Source of the DNA: Planctomycetota bacterium
Lineage (GTDB): Bacteria; Planctomycetota; Planctomycetia; Pirellulales; Pirellulaceae
Assembly: GCA_018970165.1 (NCBI GenBank)
Contig: JAGWWZ010000019.1
Location: 1 to 41,288, forward strand
Length of the DNA: 41,288 nucleotides
Direction of reading: 5' to 3'
The notes under the pieces were generated by a model. That model did not search any database. It worked only from the letters and a program-made list of their open reading frames with translations, and had not been told where the DNA came from. Positions 27,061 to 32,702 of the stretch are shown one piece after another; the first letter of the stretch is position 1, and each line of letters begins with the position of its first letter. The translations under genes and the position numbers were made by a program.

Positions 27061-27963
27061 ATGACCCATCATCTATCGAATACTCCCCGTCGTCATTTTT
27101 TGGGTGCATCTGCGGGAATGATCGCAGGCGCATGCTTGGCTTACGCTCGTATGCCCGAACTGTGGGGAGCACCCAAGAAAACTGAACTGAAACTCGGATT
27201 GGTTACCTACCAATGGGGCAAGGAGTGGGATTTGCCAAGCGTCATCAAAAACTGTGCGGAAGCCGGATTCGGAGGCGTGGAACTGCGAAGCACTCACAAG
27301 CACGGTGTGGAGATCGCGCTCAATGCCGAACGACGGACCGAAGTGCGCAAACGATTTGCTGATTCACCGGTGACGTTCGTCGGACTCGGTTCGGCTTGCG
27401 AATACCACGCAGTCGACCAAGGCGTCGTGCAGCGCAATATCGATGAGACCAAGGGTTGGATCGATCTGTGTCGCGATCTCGGAGGCGGAGGGGTCAAGGT
27501 TCGACCGAACGGGCTGCCAAAGGATATCCCGGTCGAGAAGACTTTGGAACAGATCGGCAAGTCCCTAAACATCGTTGGTCGATACGCTGCAGATCACGGA
27601 GTGCAAATCCGAGTCGAAGTACATGGCTCAGGCACGCAAGAGATCCCGAATATGAAGACCATCATGGATATCGCGGATCATCCGAGCGTCGTCGTATGCT
27701 GGAATTGCAATCCCACGGATCTCAAAGGGGAAGGCTTCGCCGCGAACTACAAGATGCTCGAGAATCGCATGGGAACGATTCACATCCATGATTTGCGACC
27801 AGGCAAAGTCGATTACCCATGGGAGGATCTGTTCGAACGATTGCGGCAATGCACAGCAGGCGGCTTCACTGGATGGTGCTTGCTCGAGGACGGGAACGTA
27901 CCCTCCGATATCGTGACCGCGATGAAGGAAAACCGAGCGATCTTCGAGCGACTGAAAAAATAG
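27061..27963 (+). CDS. Tat-exported sugar phosphate isomerase/epimerase-like TIM barrel
   Basis: A 300-residue protein. The twin-arginine signal (TPRRHFLGASAGMIAGACLA, 8-27) predicts Tat export. The barrel of the xylose isomerase-like/AP-endonuclease-2 superfamily follows: GLVTYQWGKEWDL, GFGGVELRSTHKHGVE, GGGGVKVRPNGLP, VQIRVEVHGSG, VVVCWNCNPTDL, GTIHIHDLRPG and GWCLLEDG, with Glu, Asp and His residues suited to metal binding. It is the second exported member in this window and only distantly like the one at 11497. Substrate unknown. It is convergent with the HerA-like gene; about 50 bases separate the stops. Confidence 0.88.
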   Translation: MTHHLSNTPRRHFLGASAGMIAGACLAYARMPELWGAPKKTELKLGLVTYQWGKEWDLPSVIKNCAEAGFGGVELRSTHKHGVEIALNAERRTEVRKRFADSPVTFVGLGSACEYHAVDQGVVQRNIDETKGWIDLCRDLGGGGVKVRPNGLPKDIPVEKTLEQIGKSLNIVGRYAADHGVQIRVEVHGSGTQEIPNMKTIMDIADHPSVVVCWNCNPTDLKGEGFAANYKMLENRMGTIHIHDLRPGKVDYPWEDLFERLRQCTAGGFTGWCLLEDGNVPSDIVTAMKENRAIFERLKK

Positions 27964-28016: not shown

Positions 28017-30452
28017 TCAGGATGGGCTCTTGATGAGCAGACGCAGTTTGCCTTGAGCATCGACCGAATAAGGGACCCATGCTAACGCGATAAGCTTGAT
28101 CTTCGTGTCCGATTTGCGAATCGGGATCTCCGATTCCTCGAGCCTCAGATTCTCGATCGAGTATTGGCTTTCGATCGCATCGAGTTCCTGTTGGCACTCC
28201 CTCTCCATGGCGTTCTTTTGTAAGACGAGATTCTCAAGTGTTTCCTGAGCTCGCGATACATCGTTGCTCTGACCCGATCCGGTCAAGTCGCGAACGGCAC
28301 TGGATGGCATGGATCGCCGTCGTCCACCGAGAAGGGATCCGAGAATCGAGGTTCCGAGATTGACCAAGCCATCGAGCCGCTTGGCTTTCGCTTCTTCGAT
28401 GGAACGATCCAATCGCTGTTGAGCTGCGGCGACTTTGATTTCAAACGTGCCGATCCGCTCCTCGTACTTCGCCCGGACCTTGTCCATCGCTTCATCGCGC
28501 GCTTCGCGCGCGAATTCGCCGAGTTCCAATCTCGCTGAGAATTCATCCAGTCCGGGTGTTGCGTTTCGCTTGATTGCCTTACACGAGTAGAGATTCATTT
28601 TCTCGTGACGGAAAAGAAACTCCGACAGTTCTTTGTCCCAGCCTTTATAGTTCTTTGCTAGTAGAAGCTCGGCAGGTAGTTCTGCGAAAGCGAACCCATC
28701 CACCGGTTGCTTGGTGATTTGCACATCGTCGGGATTGATCCTCAACGCCTGATCCCAAACATGCTCGGGAACCGATTGATCGATCGGAGCGAGGAGCCAA
28801 TAGTCTTTCCAAATATCGATATTGCCGGTAGCTCGAACAAAGTGGACGCTTGCGGAACCGAGCAGGGCAGGAACGAGGAGAGCGCGGCTGCCGGACGAGA
28901 CTGCGTAGTCGGGTGCGATGAACCGCTCCTCGATCCCTGCAGAGACGATTGGTCGACCGCCGGTGGGTGCTGCGGTCGGTGTATCGACTTTCGATCCACT
29001 ATCGGAAGCTATGGGCTTTGCGGCTGAATTGTCATTGCGCAACACGGCGCGTCGCGCATCGGCCATGAGTTTCGAGATTTCTTCGCGAGATAGGGGGCCA
29101 CGCAGATAGGAAAGAGCAAATCGCGTTTGGAAGATCGTCGGTGCGGAGTCGTTCACGTTGTTCATCAAGAAGACGCGGTTTCCTACGGCCGAGAGCATGC
29201 GGTCCATGGCCCCTCGATCGAAGGCCGCACCTCGCTGAAGCGATGCTCCTTGCAAACCTTCGAGCACCCGATCCTTGTCCCGTTGGGTTTGCAGTCGCCC
29301 CAGGAACCATGTCCCCATATTCGACAACCCTTTGTAATCCAAATCGACCGGGTTCTGAGTTGCGAGAACGACTCCGAGTCCAAATGCTCGGGCTTGTTTG
29401 AGCAACGTCATCATCGGACCTTTGCTCGGTGGTTTGGAATTGGGGGGAAAGTATCCGTAGATCTCATCCATGTACAGGATGGCGCGCAGGGCACTGGTGC
29501 CGCGTTGGGTACGCATCCACGAAACGACTTCATTGAGAAGGATCGTGACGAAGAACATCCGCTCCGAATCGTTGAGATGCGCGATCGACAGGATGGAGAT
29601 CTTGGCCTTGCCTTGCTTGTCGTAGAGGAGATCCTGAATCTGCAGCGATTGACCTTGGAGCCAGCCTGCAAACGAAGGGGATGCAAGGAGATTGTTGAGA
29701 GTCATCGACAACTTGATACGATCCGATTTCGGGTAGAAAGACTCCACATCCAGGACACCGATCTTTTGGATCGGAGGAGCTTGGATGCTGCGAATCAGAT
29801 CTTCCATCGAGAGATCGCGACCATCCTGCCAACTCTTGGCGAGAATGTTGGAAAGGAGGATATGCTCGCGGCTAGTCAGCGGGTCGGCATCGATCCCGAG
29901 CAACGCGAGGAGCCCAGATACAGAACTAGAGATTTGATCGCGCAGGATTTCAGCGTCTTGCAAAACCTCTTCGCCAGGCGCATCAAGGCTCTTCAGAACC
30001 GTCAACGGGACACCTACAGAGCTACCGGGTGTGTAGATAATTTTCTCAACCGAGTTCAATTGCTCCAAGTAAGTGCGATCATAGCGCCATGCCTCGAGTC
30101 CTTTGCGCCACACGTTGGCAGTATTCTCAGCCGCAGCAGCCACGTCGGGGTTGGTATCGCGATCGATCCATGGCTCGAAGTCCTTGGCTTGCAGTTCCGG
30201 GAAGGTTAATAGCAGATTGCCGAGATCCCCTTTGGGATCGATGCACAGGACCGGGATGCCATCCAGGGCAGCTTCCTCGATCAAGCTGATGCACAGGCCG
30301 GTCTTGCCGCTGCCGGTCATCCCCACACACAGCGCGTGAGTGGTCAAGTCTTTCGACCGATACTGAACCACATCGTCTAGGAGTTGTCGATTCTCCAAAT
30401 CGAATTTTTTGCCAAGATAAAAACTTCCTGGAATGTTTTCGATCGCAGTCAT
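28017..30452 (-). CDS. HerA/FtsK-type hexameric ATPase with C-terminal coiled coil
   Basis: The 811-residue product has a DUF87/HerA-like ATPase core: Walker A GMTGSGKT (44-51), IDPKGDLGN (71-79), Walker B ILYMDE (325-330), a sensor in LATQNP (363-368) and a probable arginine-finger segment GRLQTQRDKDR (385-395). The C-terminal part (about 640-700) is a charged coiled coil followed by a Gly/Ser-Leu and Arg-rich segment (LGTSILGSLLGGRRR), then more coiled coil and a beta-rich end. HerA relatives translocate DNA or remodel protein in repair, conjugation and defence. It is the last of four genes transcribed together, 59 bases after the P-loop NTPase gene. The ATG at 30452 has no clear SD. Actual substrate unknown. 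Confidence 0.88.
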   Translation of the reverse strand: MTAIENIPGSFYLGKKFDLENRQLLDDVVQYRSKDLTTHALCVGMTGSGKTGLCISLIEEAALDGIPVLCIDPKGDLGNLLLTFPELQAKDFEPWIDRDTNPDVAAAAENTANVWRKGLEAWRYDRTYLEQLNSVEKIIYTPGSSVGVPLTVLKSLDAPGEEVLQDAEILRDQISSSVSGLLALLGIDADPLTSREHILLSNILAKSWQDGRDLSMEDLIRSIQAPPIQKIGVLDVESFYPKSDRIKLSMTLNNLLASPSFAGWLQGQSLQIQDLLYDKQGKAKISILSIAHLNDSERMFFVTILLNEVVSWMRTQRGTSALRAILYMDEIYGYFPPNSKPPSKGPMMTLLKQARAFGLGVVLATQNPVDLDYKGLSNMGTWFLGRLQTQRDKDRVLEGLQGASLQRGAAFDRGAMDRMLSAVGNRVFLMNNVNDSAPTIFQTRFALSYLRGPLSREEISKLMADARRAVLRNDNSAAKPIASDSGSKVDTPTAAPTGGRPIVSAGIEERFIAPDYAVSSGSRALLVPALLGSASVHFVRATGNIDIWKDYWLLAPIDQSVPEHVWDQALRINPDDVQITKQPVDGFAFAELPAELLLAKNYKGWDKELSEFLFRHEKMNLYSCKAIKRNATPGLDEFSARLELGEFAREARDEAMDKVRAKYEERIGTFEIKVAAAQQRLDRSIEEAKAKRLDGLVNLGTSILGSLLGGRRRSMPSSAVRDLTGSGQSNDVSRAQETLENLVLQKNAMERECQQELDAIESQYSIENLRLEESEIPIRKSDTKIKLIALAWVPYSVDAQGKLRLLIKSPS

Positions 30453-30511
30453 AGGGGCTCAGTCAGAAAAGCGGGAAAGAAGTGCCGGTGGTTGATCGTT
30501 TCCGGAACAGT

Positions 30512-31147
30512 TTACCCAGATGTGGTTTCAACGTCGACTTGGTCGCGATACCAGTCGTACATGTCGAAAAGAGATTCCCTGAGATTCTCGCCACGGCGTT
30601 GTCGGGATTGCTGCCACGACTGTGATTGAGTCACATGGGAGGTGCCGACATTGTCGAAGTCTCGCAAGATGTGGGTAAGAACATGTTGTTCGACCGCGGA
30701 ATCGATGCGCGTACGCCAGATTTCGGTGAAGCGAAGGGGAAGTGCGTGGGCGGTCGCGAGAATGCGAATACCCCGCGCCCTGGCTCGCGCACGCGTAAAC
30801 CACTGCAACACCGAGTCCATTTGCTCCCAACCATCAACAACCAGGAGATGCGTATTGGGAACCTGGCGAATCGTCCGCCACCGATAACTCCGTGTCTCCC
30901 CGGTTTGAAATCGGACTTGGCAAATCGAACCATTCGATGCGGACAGAGCAGGATGCTGCGCGATGTGCGCGAGGAGCGTCGATTTGCCGGAACCGTGGGG
31001 ACCAACGATCGCGACTCGCGGGCAAACAGATTGCAGGATCGATTGGACCAGTGAGTCCAACGTCATCGGCGGATGAAAGAAAAACGGAATGGAGCCGGGC
31101 TGAAAGTAGCGGGTACAGAAAGGGTTCGTCGCGATGCGATCGCTCAT
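30512..31147 (-). CDS. Small P-loop NTPase of the HerA/arrestin-like gene set
   Basis: A 211-residue product with Walker A GPHGSGKST (49-57), Walker B LLVVDGWEQ (101-109, Asp followed by Gly rather than Glu) and a possible sensor ATAH (131-134). No ABC signature LSGGQ is seen, so it is an AAA+/STAND-like or other single-domain NTPase and not a transporter subunit. The C-terminal half is rich in Arg, Gln and Trp. The ATG at 31147 overlaps the stop of the arrestin-like gene as ATGA (31144-31147). An earlier in-frame start at 31237 would overlap that gene much more. Its role in the set is unknown; it may load or regulate the larger ATPase. Confidence 0.8.
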   Translation of the reverse strand: MSDRIATNPFCTRYFQPGSIPFFFHPPMTLDSLVQSILQSVCPRVAIVGPHGSGKSTLLAHIAQHPALSASNGSICQVRFQTGETRSYRWRTIRQVPNTHLLVVDGWEQMDSVLQWFTRARARARGIRILATAHALPLRFTEIWRTRIDSAVEQHVLTHILRDFDNVGTSHVTQSQSWQQSRQRRGENLRESLFDMYDWYRDQVDVETTSG

Positions 31148-31515
31148 ACCGCTTTGGTGATCGTTCCCAAGTAGAACGGCTGCTGGGCCATCAGTTCGGT
31201 CCCATCGCTGAAGTAGAAGCGAACTCGGACACACCAAGAAATCTTCAGCAGCGACCCTTCATACGAGAGGGGCGAGTTAGGTAACGGGCACTTTACACCC
31301 TGAGCGATCGACCAATCGATCGAAGAGAGGGAATTGCCGGTCAGCCGCTGAAAGAAGTGGACGCCAAGATCCTCGGATCCTTTGCCTTCGGTCACCCAAA
31401 CGACCGATGCTTCGACCGCCACAATCGAAGCATGATCGACATTCACAACCCGATACTCAAACTCGAGCGTATCATCCGGCATGTAGGTCGGTTGCAAACC
31501 CAACAAACGGATCAT
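31144..31515 (-). CDS. Small arrestin-like beta-sandwich protein
   Basis: A 123-residue product, predicted to be almost entirely beta-strand: PDDTLEFEYRVVN, VAVEASVVWVTEGKGSEDLG, then PLPNSPLSYEGSLLKISWCV and VRFYFSDGTELMAQQPFYLG. The pattern of a proline before a YEG turn and an I-x-W strand recalls the arrestin/Spo0M-like fold. No signal peptide or membrane helix. The ATG at 31515 is chosen because it overlaps the stop of the upstream membrane-protein gene as ATGA (31512-31515); a longer frame from 31623 would overlap that gene extensively. The fold assignment is inference from sequence pattern. Confidence 0.72.
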   Translation of the reverse strand: MIRLLGLQPTYMPDDTLEFEYRVVNVDHASIVAVEASVVWVTEGKGSEDLGVHFFQRLTGNSLSSIDWSIAQGVKCPLPNSPLSYEGSLLKISWCVRVRFYFSDGTELMAQQPFYLGTITKAV

Positions 31516-32513
31516 GACGCAACCGATGCCGGGCTGGGCTGACTTGCTGGATAGACCACTACGGGGAAACTTCGGGAGTACGATGGCCATCGATTTGCCT
31601 CTCCGTCGACAACGATCTTCCAATGAATGGCGTTATGGAAGCTCTGAAACGAGTGCATTGCATCGCGAGGGACCGAAAACTGACATTCCATGCGTAATGG
31701 GTAACCCCAGTCAATTCGATCCCGTCCGTGGTTCGCGATGACCTGATTAAAGACGATCTGGCGTTCGGTCCTCACATCGGTTCCGAAATGATACGTGCTT
31801 TCTTCTTCGCACACCAGTCGCACCGTGATTTTCTTGATCACTAGTCGGCCGTACTGCAGCACCTCGAGCTGATAGGTTTTGCCTGGGATGAGGGGCAAGT
31901 CCTCGACCTCGACCGTGGTCGACCCGATCCCTAACGTTCGAATAAACGACCGAAAGAACAACTGAGTGGAGCGAACCGCAACATAAATCCCAGGTACGAG
32001 CAGAATCAGGAGCCTGTAGGGAACCGAGGAACGAAAGAGGCTTTCGATCGCGAAGACAACGAAGATCGCGATCATGGCGTTCCAGGCCATGGCAAAAATT
32101 CCCATCGCGACCAGGGCATCGTTCTCAGGAATCTGGCTCGGGAGGCGGAAAGCTAGCTTAGCGCCAGGGCTATCGGTGAACAATTGCAAGTCGGGAACCG
32201 TGGGGGGGAGTGCCTTCTTATTCTTGCGAACCATGGGCTCTGGAACGATGCCGCGTTTGGCGATCACTTCGCGATGTTCGTCACTGGTAACAACTTTGAG
32301 CACTCGATACCAGAACCCGACCGTTCCGATCACGATGAAGGAGATCGCAACCAGGAAGAATAACCAGAACCCGTATCCGATACGAATCATCTGAGTCTTG
32401 GGGGACATCAGTTGCCAAGCCACGAGAGTGGTCGCGGACAGAACGCCGACCAAAAAGAAAGCTGCGAAGAATGACGCTTCGCCGAGGGAGCCGATGAACC
32501 ACCAGCCGGTCAT
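31512..32513 (-). CDS. Four-helix membrane protein with arrestin-like C-terminal domain
   Basis: A 333-residue product. Hydrophobic segments at about 13-35, 48-69, 134-158 and 166-184 predict four membrane helices, with a polar loop of about 65 residues between the second and third. The C-terminal part (about 198-325) is beta-rich and arrestin-like: PLIPGKTYQLEVLQYG, ITVRLVCEEEST, then FSVPRDAMHSFQSFHNAIHW and KIVVDG. With an even number of helices both ends lie on the same side, probably cytoplasmic. The ATG at 32513 is chosen for a very strong SD (AGGAGG four bases upstream); an ATG at 32570 lacks one. First gene of the four-gene set. Confidence 0.78.
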   Translation of the reverse strand: MTGWWFIGSLGEASFFAAFFLVGVLSATTLVAWQLMSPKTQMIRIGYGFWLFFLVAISFIVIGTVGFWYRVLKVVTSDEHREVIAKRGIVPEPMVRKNKKALPPTVPDLQLFTDSPGAKLAFRLPSQIPENDALVAMGIFAMAWNAMIAIFVVFAIESLFRSSVPYRLLILLVPGIYVAVRSTQLFFRSFIRTLGIGSTTVEVEDLPLIPGKTYQLEVLQYGRLVIKKITVRLVCEEESTYHFGTDVRTERQIVFNQVIANHGRDRIDWGYPLRMECQFSVPRDAMHSFQSFHNAIHWKIVVDGEANRWPSYSRSFPVVVYPASQPSPASVAS

Positions 32514-32517
32514 GCGT

Positions 32518-32523
32518 CCTCCT
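32518..32523 (-). promoter_or_regulatory. Strong Shine-Dalgarno fixing the start of the membrane-protein gene
   Basis: AGGAGG on the minus strand, four bases before the ATG at 32513 (GAGGAGGACGC then ATG). It is one of the best SD sequences in the window and argues against the in-frame ATG at 32570. Confidence 0.8.
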
Positions 32524-32702
32524 CGTTTCTTCCCCCACAACCGAAATTTCGCACGCCACTTGGTCTTCATGGCAAGCAGTTTACCAGGGAGAAAGAACTT
32601 ATGCAGGAGGACATTGTCAGACTCAGCTTAAGCGATGGGTCCCATCCTGCGGGAAGCTAGCCCAGCAGGATTGACTTTCGGAACCGCACGTCTCGTGAGA
32701 AA

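Follow-up and report, generated by a model that had tools for sequence, protein, structure and literature searches.

A four-gene stretch on a planctomycete contig

We analysed a stretch of 41,288 nucleotides (hereafter the window), positions 1 to 41,288 of the forward strand of contig JAGWWZ010000019.1 in assembly GCA_018970165.1, from a Planctomycetota bacterium of the family Pirellulaceae, order Pirellulales (hereafter 'the order'). Four open reading frames (ORFs) follow one another on its minus strand. The first three code for a membrane protein, a small soluble protein and a P-loop protein, which we named TM, SOL and NTP, respectively, and the fourth codes for a HerA-like ATPase. TM, SOL and NTP constitute a conserved three-gene module, near-universal in the order. 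Judging from sequence profiles, TM and SOL are most likely the two lobes of one arrestin-like protein, encoded by two genes, and NTP is predicted to be a small AAA+ ATPase. The features of the three genes are the following.

31512..32570 (-), TM (gene 1), putative membrane anchor with an arrestin-like second lobe; 352 residues, four predicted helices
32514..32531 (-), KKRG.R basic motif at the N terminus of TM, residues 14-19, conserved in alignments and upstream of the start codon noted earlier
31545..31925 (-), predicted arrestin-like beta-sandwich lobe of TM, approximately residues 216-342, equivalent to lobe 2 of the single-chain relatives
31512..31515 (-), ATGA start/stop overlap of TM and SOL, read in the sequence
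31144..31515 (-), SOL (gene 2), putative soluble arrestin-like first lobe; 123 residues, family motif SVLWYTEGKG.EDL
31144..31147 (-), ATGA start/stop overlap of SOL and NTP, read in the sequence
30512..31147 (-), NTP (gene 3), predicted small AAA+ ATPase; 211 residues, model mean pLDDT 93
30980..31003 (-), Walker A motif of NTP, residues 49-56; G49, H51, G52, G54 and K55 invariant in 45 sequences
30821..30847 (-), Walker B region of NTP, residues 101-109; D105 in 43/45 and E108 in 42/45 sequences
30578..30580 (-), R190 of NTP, invariant in 45/45 sequences and at the position of a putative sensor-2 arginine

A preliminary description of this DNA had located the four genes on the same strand, and all the ORFs were found where it placed them. 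The two ATGA overlaps and the gap of 59 bases before the fourth gene (30453-30511) are there as well, the P-loops GPHGSGKST and GMTGSGKT are present in the translations, and the four membrane helices attributed to the first gene are predicted at residues 32-50, 68-86, 157-175 and 187-205. For that gene, given as 31512-32513, the end is right but the start needs correction: it is probably at 32570 rather than at 32513, because the KKRG.R motif, upstream of the latter, is invariant or at least 90% conserved in alignments A3 and A5. Alignment A5 holds 39 of 73 TM relatives, A6 44 of 58 and A7 53 of 77; A1 and A3 exclude locus L088, where TM and SOL are in one frame, and A2 excludes L084, L085 and L093, which have no NTP there. 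Among the relatives read in detail, the 4-base overlap of TM and SOL is found in 13/20, and that of SOL and NTP in 5 of the 17 in which NTP adjoins SOL.

Conservation of the three genes in the order

The module was searched for in 146 genomes of the order, with presence thresholds of E <= 1e-3 for SOL, 1e-20 for TM and 1e-12 for NTP, and in a sample of 246 genomes of the phylum, four of which belong to the order. Genes were considered adjacent when the best hits per genome lie within 2 kb (5 kb for the HerA-like gene). In addition, 84,980 species genomes were scanned with one SOL peptide pattern, and the best 80 of 206 confirmed relatives were kept as named loci, with flanks of up to 8 kb, shorter at contig ends; such a one-pattern scan would miss more distant relatives in other phyla. 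The genome sample (G numbers) and the named contigs (L numbers) overlap, the same genome occurring in both for instance for L083 and L104, and the two sets are not independent.

SOL and TM were each found in 127 of the 146 genomes of the order and NTP in 126; all three are present in 123 genomes and none in 16. SOL and NTP occur together in 124 genomes, are both missing from 17 and are discordant in 5 (Fisher p = 2.8e-17, shared ancestry uncorrected). TM and SOL are adjacent in 115/125 genomes having both, and SOL and NTP in 112/124. In the 12 genomes with SOL and NTP apart, NTP is on another contig in ten cases and far away in two. The loci read in detail agree with these counts: TM adjoins SOL in 20/20, once within the same frame, and NTP follows in 17/20. 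Of the 80 named loci, 79 have TM no more than 2 kb upstream of SOL, and 60 have NTP close downstream. In strains CA13 and K23_9, TM, SOL and NTP are direct neighbours. TM and SOL also occur in Rhodopirellula europaea 6C and Roseiconus nitratireducens, where the 8-kb flanks contain no clear NTP gene. The named contigs closest to the window are metagenome assemblies, of which L104 and L105 are labelled Pirellula. Thus, the neighbourhood conservation that the preliminary description had expected of its gene set holds for TM, SOL and NTP.

The flanks of the module in relatives include families that we take, by eye, to be quinoprotein-like, UvrD/PcrA-like and PolX-like. They recur in 4 to 12 of 21 compared loci, window included, and are not constant. 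A constant partner was also sought by eye for the unlinked NTP genes, and none is common to the 12 loci. L206 and L207, from one genus, share a neighbour, and L211 (G009) has a TM gene about 1.4 kb away.

The HerA-like ATPase is a neighbour

28017..30452 (-), HerA-like P-loop ATPase, 811 residues, a neighbour and not part of the module

The product of the fourth gene matches HerA_C (1.4e-10) and DUF87 (4.7e-8) in Pfam, and mad8 (9.2e-16) and HerA models (up to 8.4e-10) in PADLOC. The preliminary description had taken the four genes as one system, in which arrestin-like adaptors would direct a HerA-type motor and an NTPase, possibly to translocate DNA or proteins or to serve in defence. The common strand and the 59-base gap speak for this, together with the same layout in G133 and in L103-L105 (L104 being the G133 contig), the closest relatives of the window. 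However, L103-L105 are the only 3 of the 80 named loci with a HerA-like gene near SOL. When presence is set at about 300 bits or more, the HerA-like gene is found in 77/146 genomes (84 at E <= 0.001). It co-occurs with SOL in 65 genomes and lies within 5 kb of it in two of them, the window genome and a second one from its genus; in the others the two genes are on the same contig at 25 kb to 4 Mb (10 genomes) or on different contigs (53 genomes). Furthermore, 12 genomes have the HerA-like gene with neither SOL nor NTP, and 62 have SOL with no HerA-like gene at that bit score. The two genes show no association (Fisher p = 0.46, 146 genomes). The four-gene system, rejected by both neighbourhood and co-occurrence, is largely refuted, and a translocation machine of this composition is very improbable. 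We are highly confident that the composition is a split arrestin with an ATPase and that the HerA-like protein is excluded from it.

The window neighbour resembles the ATPases of HerA-NurA and HerA-nuclease pairs and of mad8 in MADS, but it is not tied to the arrestin module, and no nuclease is in the set, as had been noted before: a Pfam scan of the four genes and five neighbours found none there.

The matches to defence models raise the alternative that the genes belong to an anti-phage defence or mobile conflict system. NTP has matches of the NACHT/STAND type, and PADLOC mad8 is matched both by the HerA-like neighbour (9.2e-16) and by NTP (2.8e-5). However, PADLOC gave no match for TM or SOL, and its matches to NTP are at 2.8e-5 or weaker and lie around the P-loop only. 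The module is present in most genomes of the order, the genes on either side of it, judged by eye, look like housekeeping genes both in the window and in the relatives inspected, and SOL found no match among 72,556 records of plasmids and 50,697 of phages. A role in defence is thus highly unlikely, and neither the HerA part of the earlier reading nor its DNA or defence function is supported.

The HerA-like family is a separate one. Around its relatives L063-L082, neighbour families recur in at most 6/20 loci compared; four recurrent neighbour families occur together in L066-L069, all of family f7. Beyond the HerA-like gene, the convergent ORF at 27061-27963 of the window matches PF01261 (AP_endonuc_2, a xylose isomerase-like TIM barrel) and has a weak TAT-signal match. 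We read its product as a sugar-isomerase-like protein.

TM and SOL as the probable lobes of a split arrestin-like protein

The structural model of TM consists of long helices followed by a beta-sandwich, with a mean pLDDT of 76 and a pTM of 0.59; over the C-terminal domain, pLDDT values per block of ten residues are mostly 83-92, with one block at 71. Foldseek comparisons of the model gave the N-lobe of ARRDC3 (E 2.0e-9), with Spo0M second (E 1.9e-8), and VDUP-1/TXNIP and Vps26 also ranked high. Against viral models, three matches reached E <= 0.001, none of them a named arrestin. According to the model, the C-terminal domain of TM thus has the fold of an arrestin-type lobe.

The domain DUF3592 (PF12158) was found between helices 1 and 2 in 16/20 aligned TM members, a likeness to DUF3592 proteins; the window TM differs in being devoid of it, and the arrestin lobe after the helices lies outside that family. 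The stretch between helices 1 and 2 that holds DUF3592 in other aligned members is missing from the window protein and from those of L083, L084 and L085. Nine Lys or Arg residues are found in the N-terminal tail of the window TM and 11 in its second inner loop, with two per outer loop. The positive-inside rule would place the arrestin lobe in the cytosol and the DUF3592 stretch of the relatives outside.

For SOL, Pfam searches at E <= 0.1 gave Arrestin_C in 10/20 members (best 3.1e-5) and Arrestin_N in 6/20. The clearest evidence comes from single-chain planctomycete relatives in six genomes (L187-L192), in which a lobe 1 and a lobe 2 are found in one protein, with a helix pair between them in both of those checked (L187 and L188). 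Arrestin_N matches lobe 1 of these proteins above the cut-off in 6/6 cases (1.5e-11 to 7.8e-18). Arrestin_C is above the cut-off in 4/6 (best 7.9e-13, on lobe 2 of L188), its best stretch being lobe 2 in L188, L191 and L192 and lobe 1 in L187. Spo0M (PF07070) is above the cut-off in L188 and L191 (best 3.5e-11) and below it in L190 and L192; no match to it at E <= 1 was found for the window TM or SOL. In hhalign, the SOL profile aligns on lobe 1 of the single-chain proteins (probability 98, E 2.9e-13), and the TM profile on the helix and lobe 2 (probability 99.1, E 4.7e-19). By way of these Arrestin_N-positive relatives, SOL is recognized as an arrestin-like lobe.

Since SOL matches lobe 1 and TM matches lobe 2 of the single-chain relatives, TM and SOL are most likely the two lobes of one arrestin-like protein, encoded by two genes. 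In the arrestin clan both lobes are in one polypeptide, and in the window they are on separate genes. TM and SOL are fused in a single reading frame in L088, L116 and L199. For L116, a mixed alignment (A4) was discarded: TM rows had fallen on the SOL part, with 20-47% identity to L116, and residues of that part appeared falsely invariant. The preliminary description had called the two proteins arrestin-like, one of the membrane and one soluble, and this is borne out by the fold model for TM (31512-32513 as given there) and by the profiles for SOL. It did not see that they are lobes of one protein.

In G362 (L192:4957-7450), a gene of the single-chain type, coding for a two-lobed arrestin-like protein of 586 residues, shares 8 bases, as called, with a diverged homologue of NTP. 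The NTP match is weak but full-length (E 9.8e-8 in a small ORF set), with the P-loop GDCGRGKT. This locus appears to represent an arrestin-ATPase partnership in which the arrestin gene is not split.

The features above bear on a more trivial explanation, namely that the genes are merely co-transcribed, with two arrestin-like proteins acting separately and an unrelated NTPase. NTP can indeed sit elsewhere, beside other genes, and TM and SOL are on different contigs in 10/125 genomes, although at least in G034 these are contig ends. Set against this are the natural one-frame fusions, the joint absence of the genes and the lobe-by-lobe match to a single-chain protein, which make mere co-transcription improbable.

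A second, diverged TM-SOL pair, of 222 and 130 residues, is present in the genome of the window itself (L183:9193-10228, contig G000:C164). It adjoins genes for isoaspartyl-peptidase-like, sigma-factor-like and large protein-kinase-like proteins, as named by eye.

NTP is predicted to be a small AAA+ ATPase

The model of NTP (30512-31147) has a mean pLDDT of 93 and shows a few helices after the nucleotide-binding part, at the end of the chain, for 211 residues in all. Its fold matches are mostly RFC subunits (best E 9.3e-6), with Hda and NB-ARC proteins also found; they are modest, with query TM-scores of 0.34-0.60 among the matches listed. Nearly all of the 45 NTP sequences retain an N-terminal NPF motif, the Walker A motif, the acids of Walker B and R190. 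In Pfam, the matches are to P-loop families: AAA_16 in 38/45 sequences, NACHT in 30/45 (E <= 0.01) and nSTAND_NTPase5 in 17/45, the window protein matching NACHT above the cut-off (8.2e-7). The NTP profile searched against PDB sequences likewise gave mostly P-loop matches. Altogether, NTP models as a small AAA+ ATPase; the preliminary description had called it a P-loop ATPase and suggested a comparison with AAA+ folds. With clamp-loader, Hda and STAND ATPases it shares the fold, both Walker motifs and the invariant arginine, a sensor-2 residue by position only; it differs from clamp loaders in its small size, in the lack of their C-terminal collar domain, in its modest scores and in its gene partner, which is an arrestin pair instead of a DNA clamp. 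NTP is apparently fast-evolving: it is 43% identical to its homologue in the same genus (L083:8655-9293), whose SOL is 90% identical.

Distribution outside the order

Beyond the order, the module is patchy in the phylum. The three genes are found together in 13 of the 242 phylum-sample genomes outside it (G154, G201, G221, G255, G285, G286, G288, G314, G317, G320, G341, G377 and G334, where TM and SOL share one frame). The phylum sample also gave 202 NTP and 78 TM matches, many of them to the P-loop or the DUF3592 part alone.

A membrane-tethered arrestin adaptor with its own ATPase?

The arrestin fold characterizes a class of eukaryotic adaptors that recognize and sort membrane proteins, and animals use it to grip membrane receptors. 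Based on the features described here, we propose that TM is an inner-membrane anchor carrying the second arrestin lobe and that SOL provides the first lobe, soluble and made separately, with the synthesis of the two probably coupled through the ATGA overlaps. The lobes would most likely come together at the cytosolic surface of the membrane to form a complete arrestin-type clamp, and we regard their physical association as probable. The clamp would grip a membrane protein or a partner beneath the membrane. The NTP ATPase might load or release it, a step that we put forward tentatively. The DUF3592 domain that most relatives possess probably faces outwards and could inform the clamp of conditions in the periplasm; the window TM has no such domain. 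A more specific version is a membrane-resident machine whose lobes close round the cytosolic portion of a membrane protein that serves as cargo, with a clamp-loader-like AAA+ ATPase loading or opening the clamp; we consider it rather unlikely. For the overall explanation, in which a split arrestin adaptor is tethered to the membrane and has an ATPase of its own, we estimate a probability of roughly 0.55. The idea of a membrane-tethered adaptor with an ATPase was already in the preliminary description; what stands of it is the link between an arrestin pair and the P-loop ATPase NTP, with the HerA-type motor left out. Its core was right, as there is a real module, but one of three genes, whose arrestin-like pair are halves of one protein.

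Several observations weigh against this explanation. For TM, confidence in the model is modest overall (pLDDT 76, pTM 0.59), KirBac channels, which have an Ig-like domain, are also among the fold matches, from E 1.8e-5, and the TM profile gave only chance-level matches against PDB sequences (best E 0.37). The same search with the SOL profile yielded chance-level matches only (best E 0.42), and the Arrestin_C and Arrestin_N matches of single SOL members (best 3.1e-5) are under Pfam's cut-off. The TM and SOL profiles have no match to each other, which is expected of different lobes and is no proof of pairing. Whenever the two are in one frame, the order is lobe 2 followed by lobe 1, opposite to that of the single-chain relatives. 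The charge-based topology is less clear in two relatives checked, whose long outer loops have 9 and 13 Lys or Arg residues. The SOL profile matches 28/246 genomes of the phylum sample; four of them belong to the order, and the remainder include single-chain relatives.

The linkage of NTP also has exceptions. It is not near TM and SOL in 20/80 named loci, 14 of which are the Pirellula-like relatives L106-L119; one of the 20, L157, has only 527 bases downstream, so that the presence of NTP cannot be judged there. Profile searches of the loci in which BLAST had missed NTP, L157 excepted, found none, the best match being at E 0.002 in a long ORF of L177. Three genomes of genus g89 have TM and SOL together and NTP elsewhere. 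In both g89 loci that were read, NTP adjoins a metallo-beta-lactamase-fold gene, named by eye; at L185:5717-7044 and L186:5722-7073, the NTP homologue overlaps this gene, whose product has 249 residues, by 4 bases, an arrangement found only in these two of the 12 unlinked loci. Because NTP sits away from TM-SOL in some loci, and beside another gene in g89, the ATPase may have other jobs.

Some of the same observations fit the main rival explanation, that the split arrestin is a passive scaffold or signalling adaptor beneath the membrane, acting like Spo0M in cell division, with the cytoskeleton or on the envelope state, and that the ATPase is a switch or an accessory. Spo0M is the closest bacterial entry among the TM fold matches, and an excerpt of PMC5325327 reports that the Bacillus subtilis protein interacts with cytoskeletal cell-division proteins. 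The presence of DUF3592 in 16/20 aligned TM proteins would suggest an outward sensor, the matches of NTP to NACHT (8.2e-7 in the window, 30/45 overall) and nSTAND_NTPase5 (17/45) are compatible with a switch, and a minority of loci have no NTP linked to the pair. On the other hand, an AAA+ protein with conserved catalytic motifs, beside SOL in 112/124 genomes and present in 124/127 SOL genomes, suggests that energy is used on the arrestin, although a signalling ATPase would look alike. We regard a passive scaffold as possible but less than likely.

Relation to known systems

Alpha-arrestins and Vps26 are single, two-lobed cytosolic chains. The module resembles them (ARRDC3, TXNIP/VDUP-1 and the VPS26 proteins of retromer and retriever) in the fold of the TM lobe and in the Arrestin_N and Arrestin_C profiles that match its single-chain relatives, and differs in that the lobes are split, one of them being borne by a four-helix membrane protein. 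Spo0M of B. subtilis (PF07070, PDB 5cl2) is the bacterial arrestin-clan protein nearest to the module: it is the second fold match of TM, and 2/6 single-chain relatives match its Pfam family. The solved Spo0M protein, however, is one chain, whereas here there are two genes, a membrane anchor and an ATPase, and the window proteins have no PF07070 match.

According to an excerpt of PMC2515105, the arrestin clan is represented in prokaryotes by the Spo0M family. Other AAA+ partners at bacterial membranes are treated in the PSP survey PMC11237479, whose text has no arrestin or Spo0M. An excerpt of PMC6524685 points to intracellular vesicles and coat-like proteins as notable features of planctomycetes. 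Among the matches listed in searches of the open-licence PMC literature, none describes in planctomycetes an arrestin with split lobes, a protein that combines DUF3592 with an arrestin, or a gene set of an arrestin and an AAA+ ATPase, and no paper was found there on arrestin-like proteins in combination with Planctomycetota. The preliminary description had known of no system of its composition, and among the matches listed the same holds for the three-gene set. What appears to be new is a three-gene module, widespread in the order, with the arrestin lobes split, one of them fixed in the membrane, and paired with an ATPase.

If the more specific version proposed above is true, with lobes that close round a cargo and a clamp-loader-like ATPase, planctomycetes of this order would have an arrestin-based, energy-driven adaptor that sorts or remodels membrane proteins, with a logic comparable to that of the eukaryotic arrestin and Vps26 adaptors. 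The module is a genetically testable candidate for what would be ATP-driven adaptor work at a bacterial membrane.

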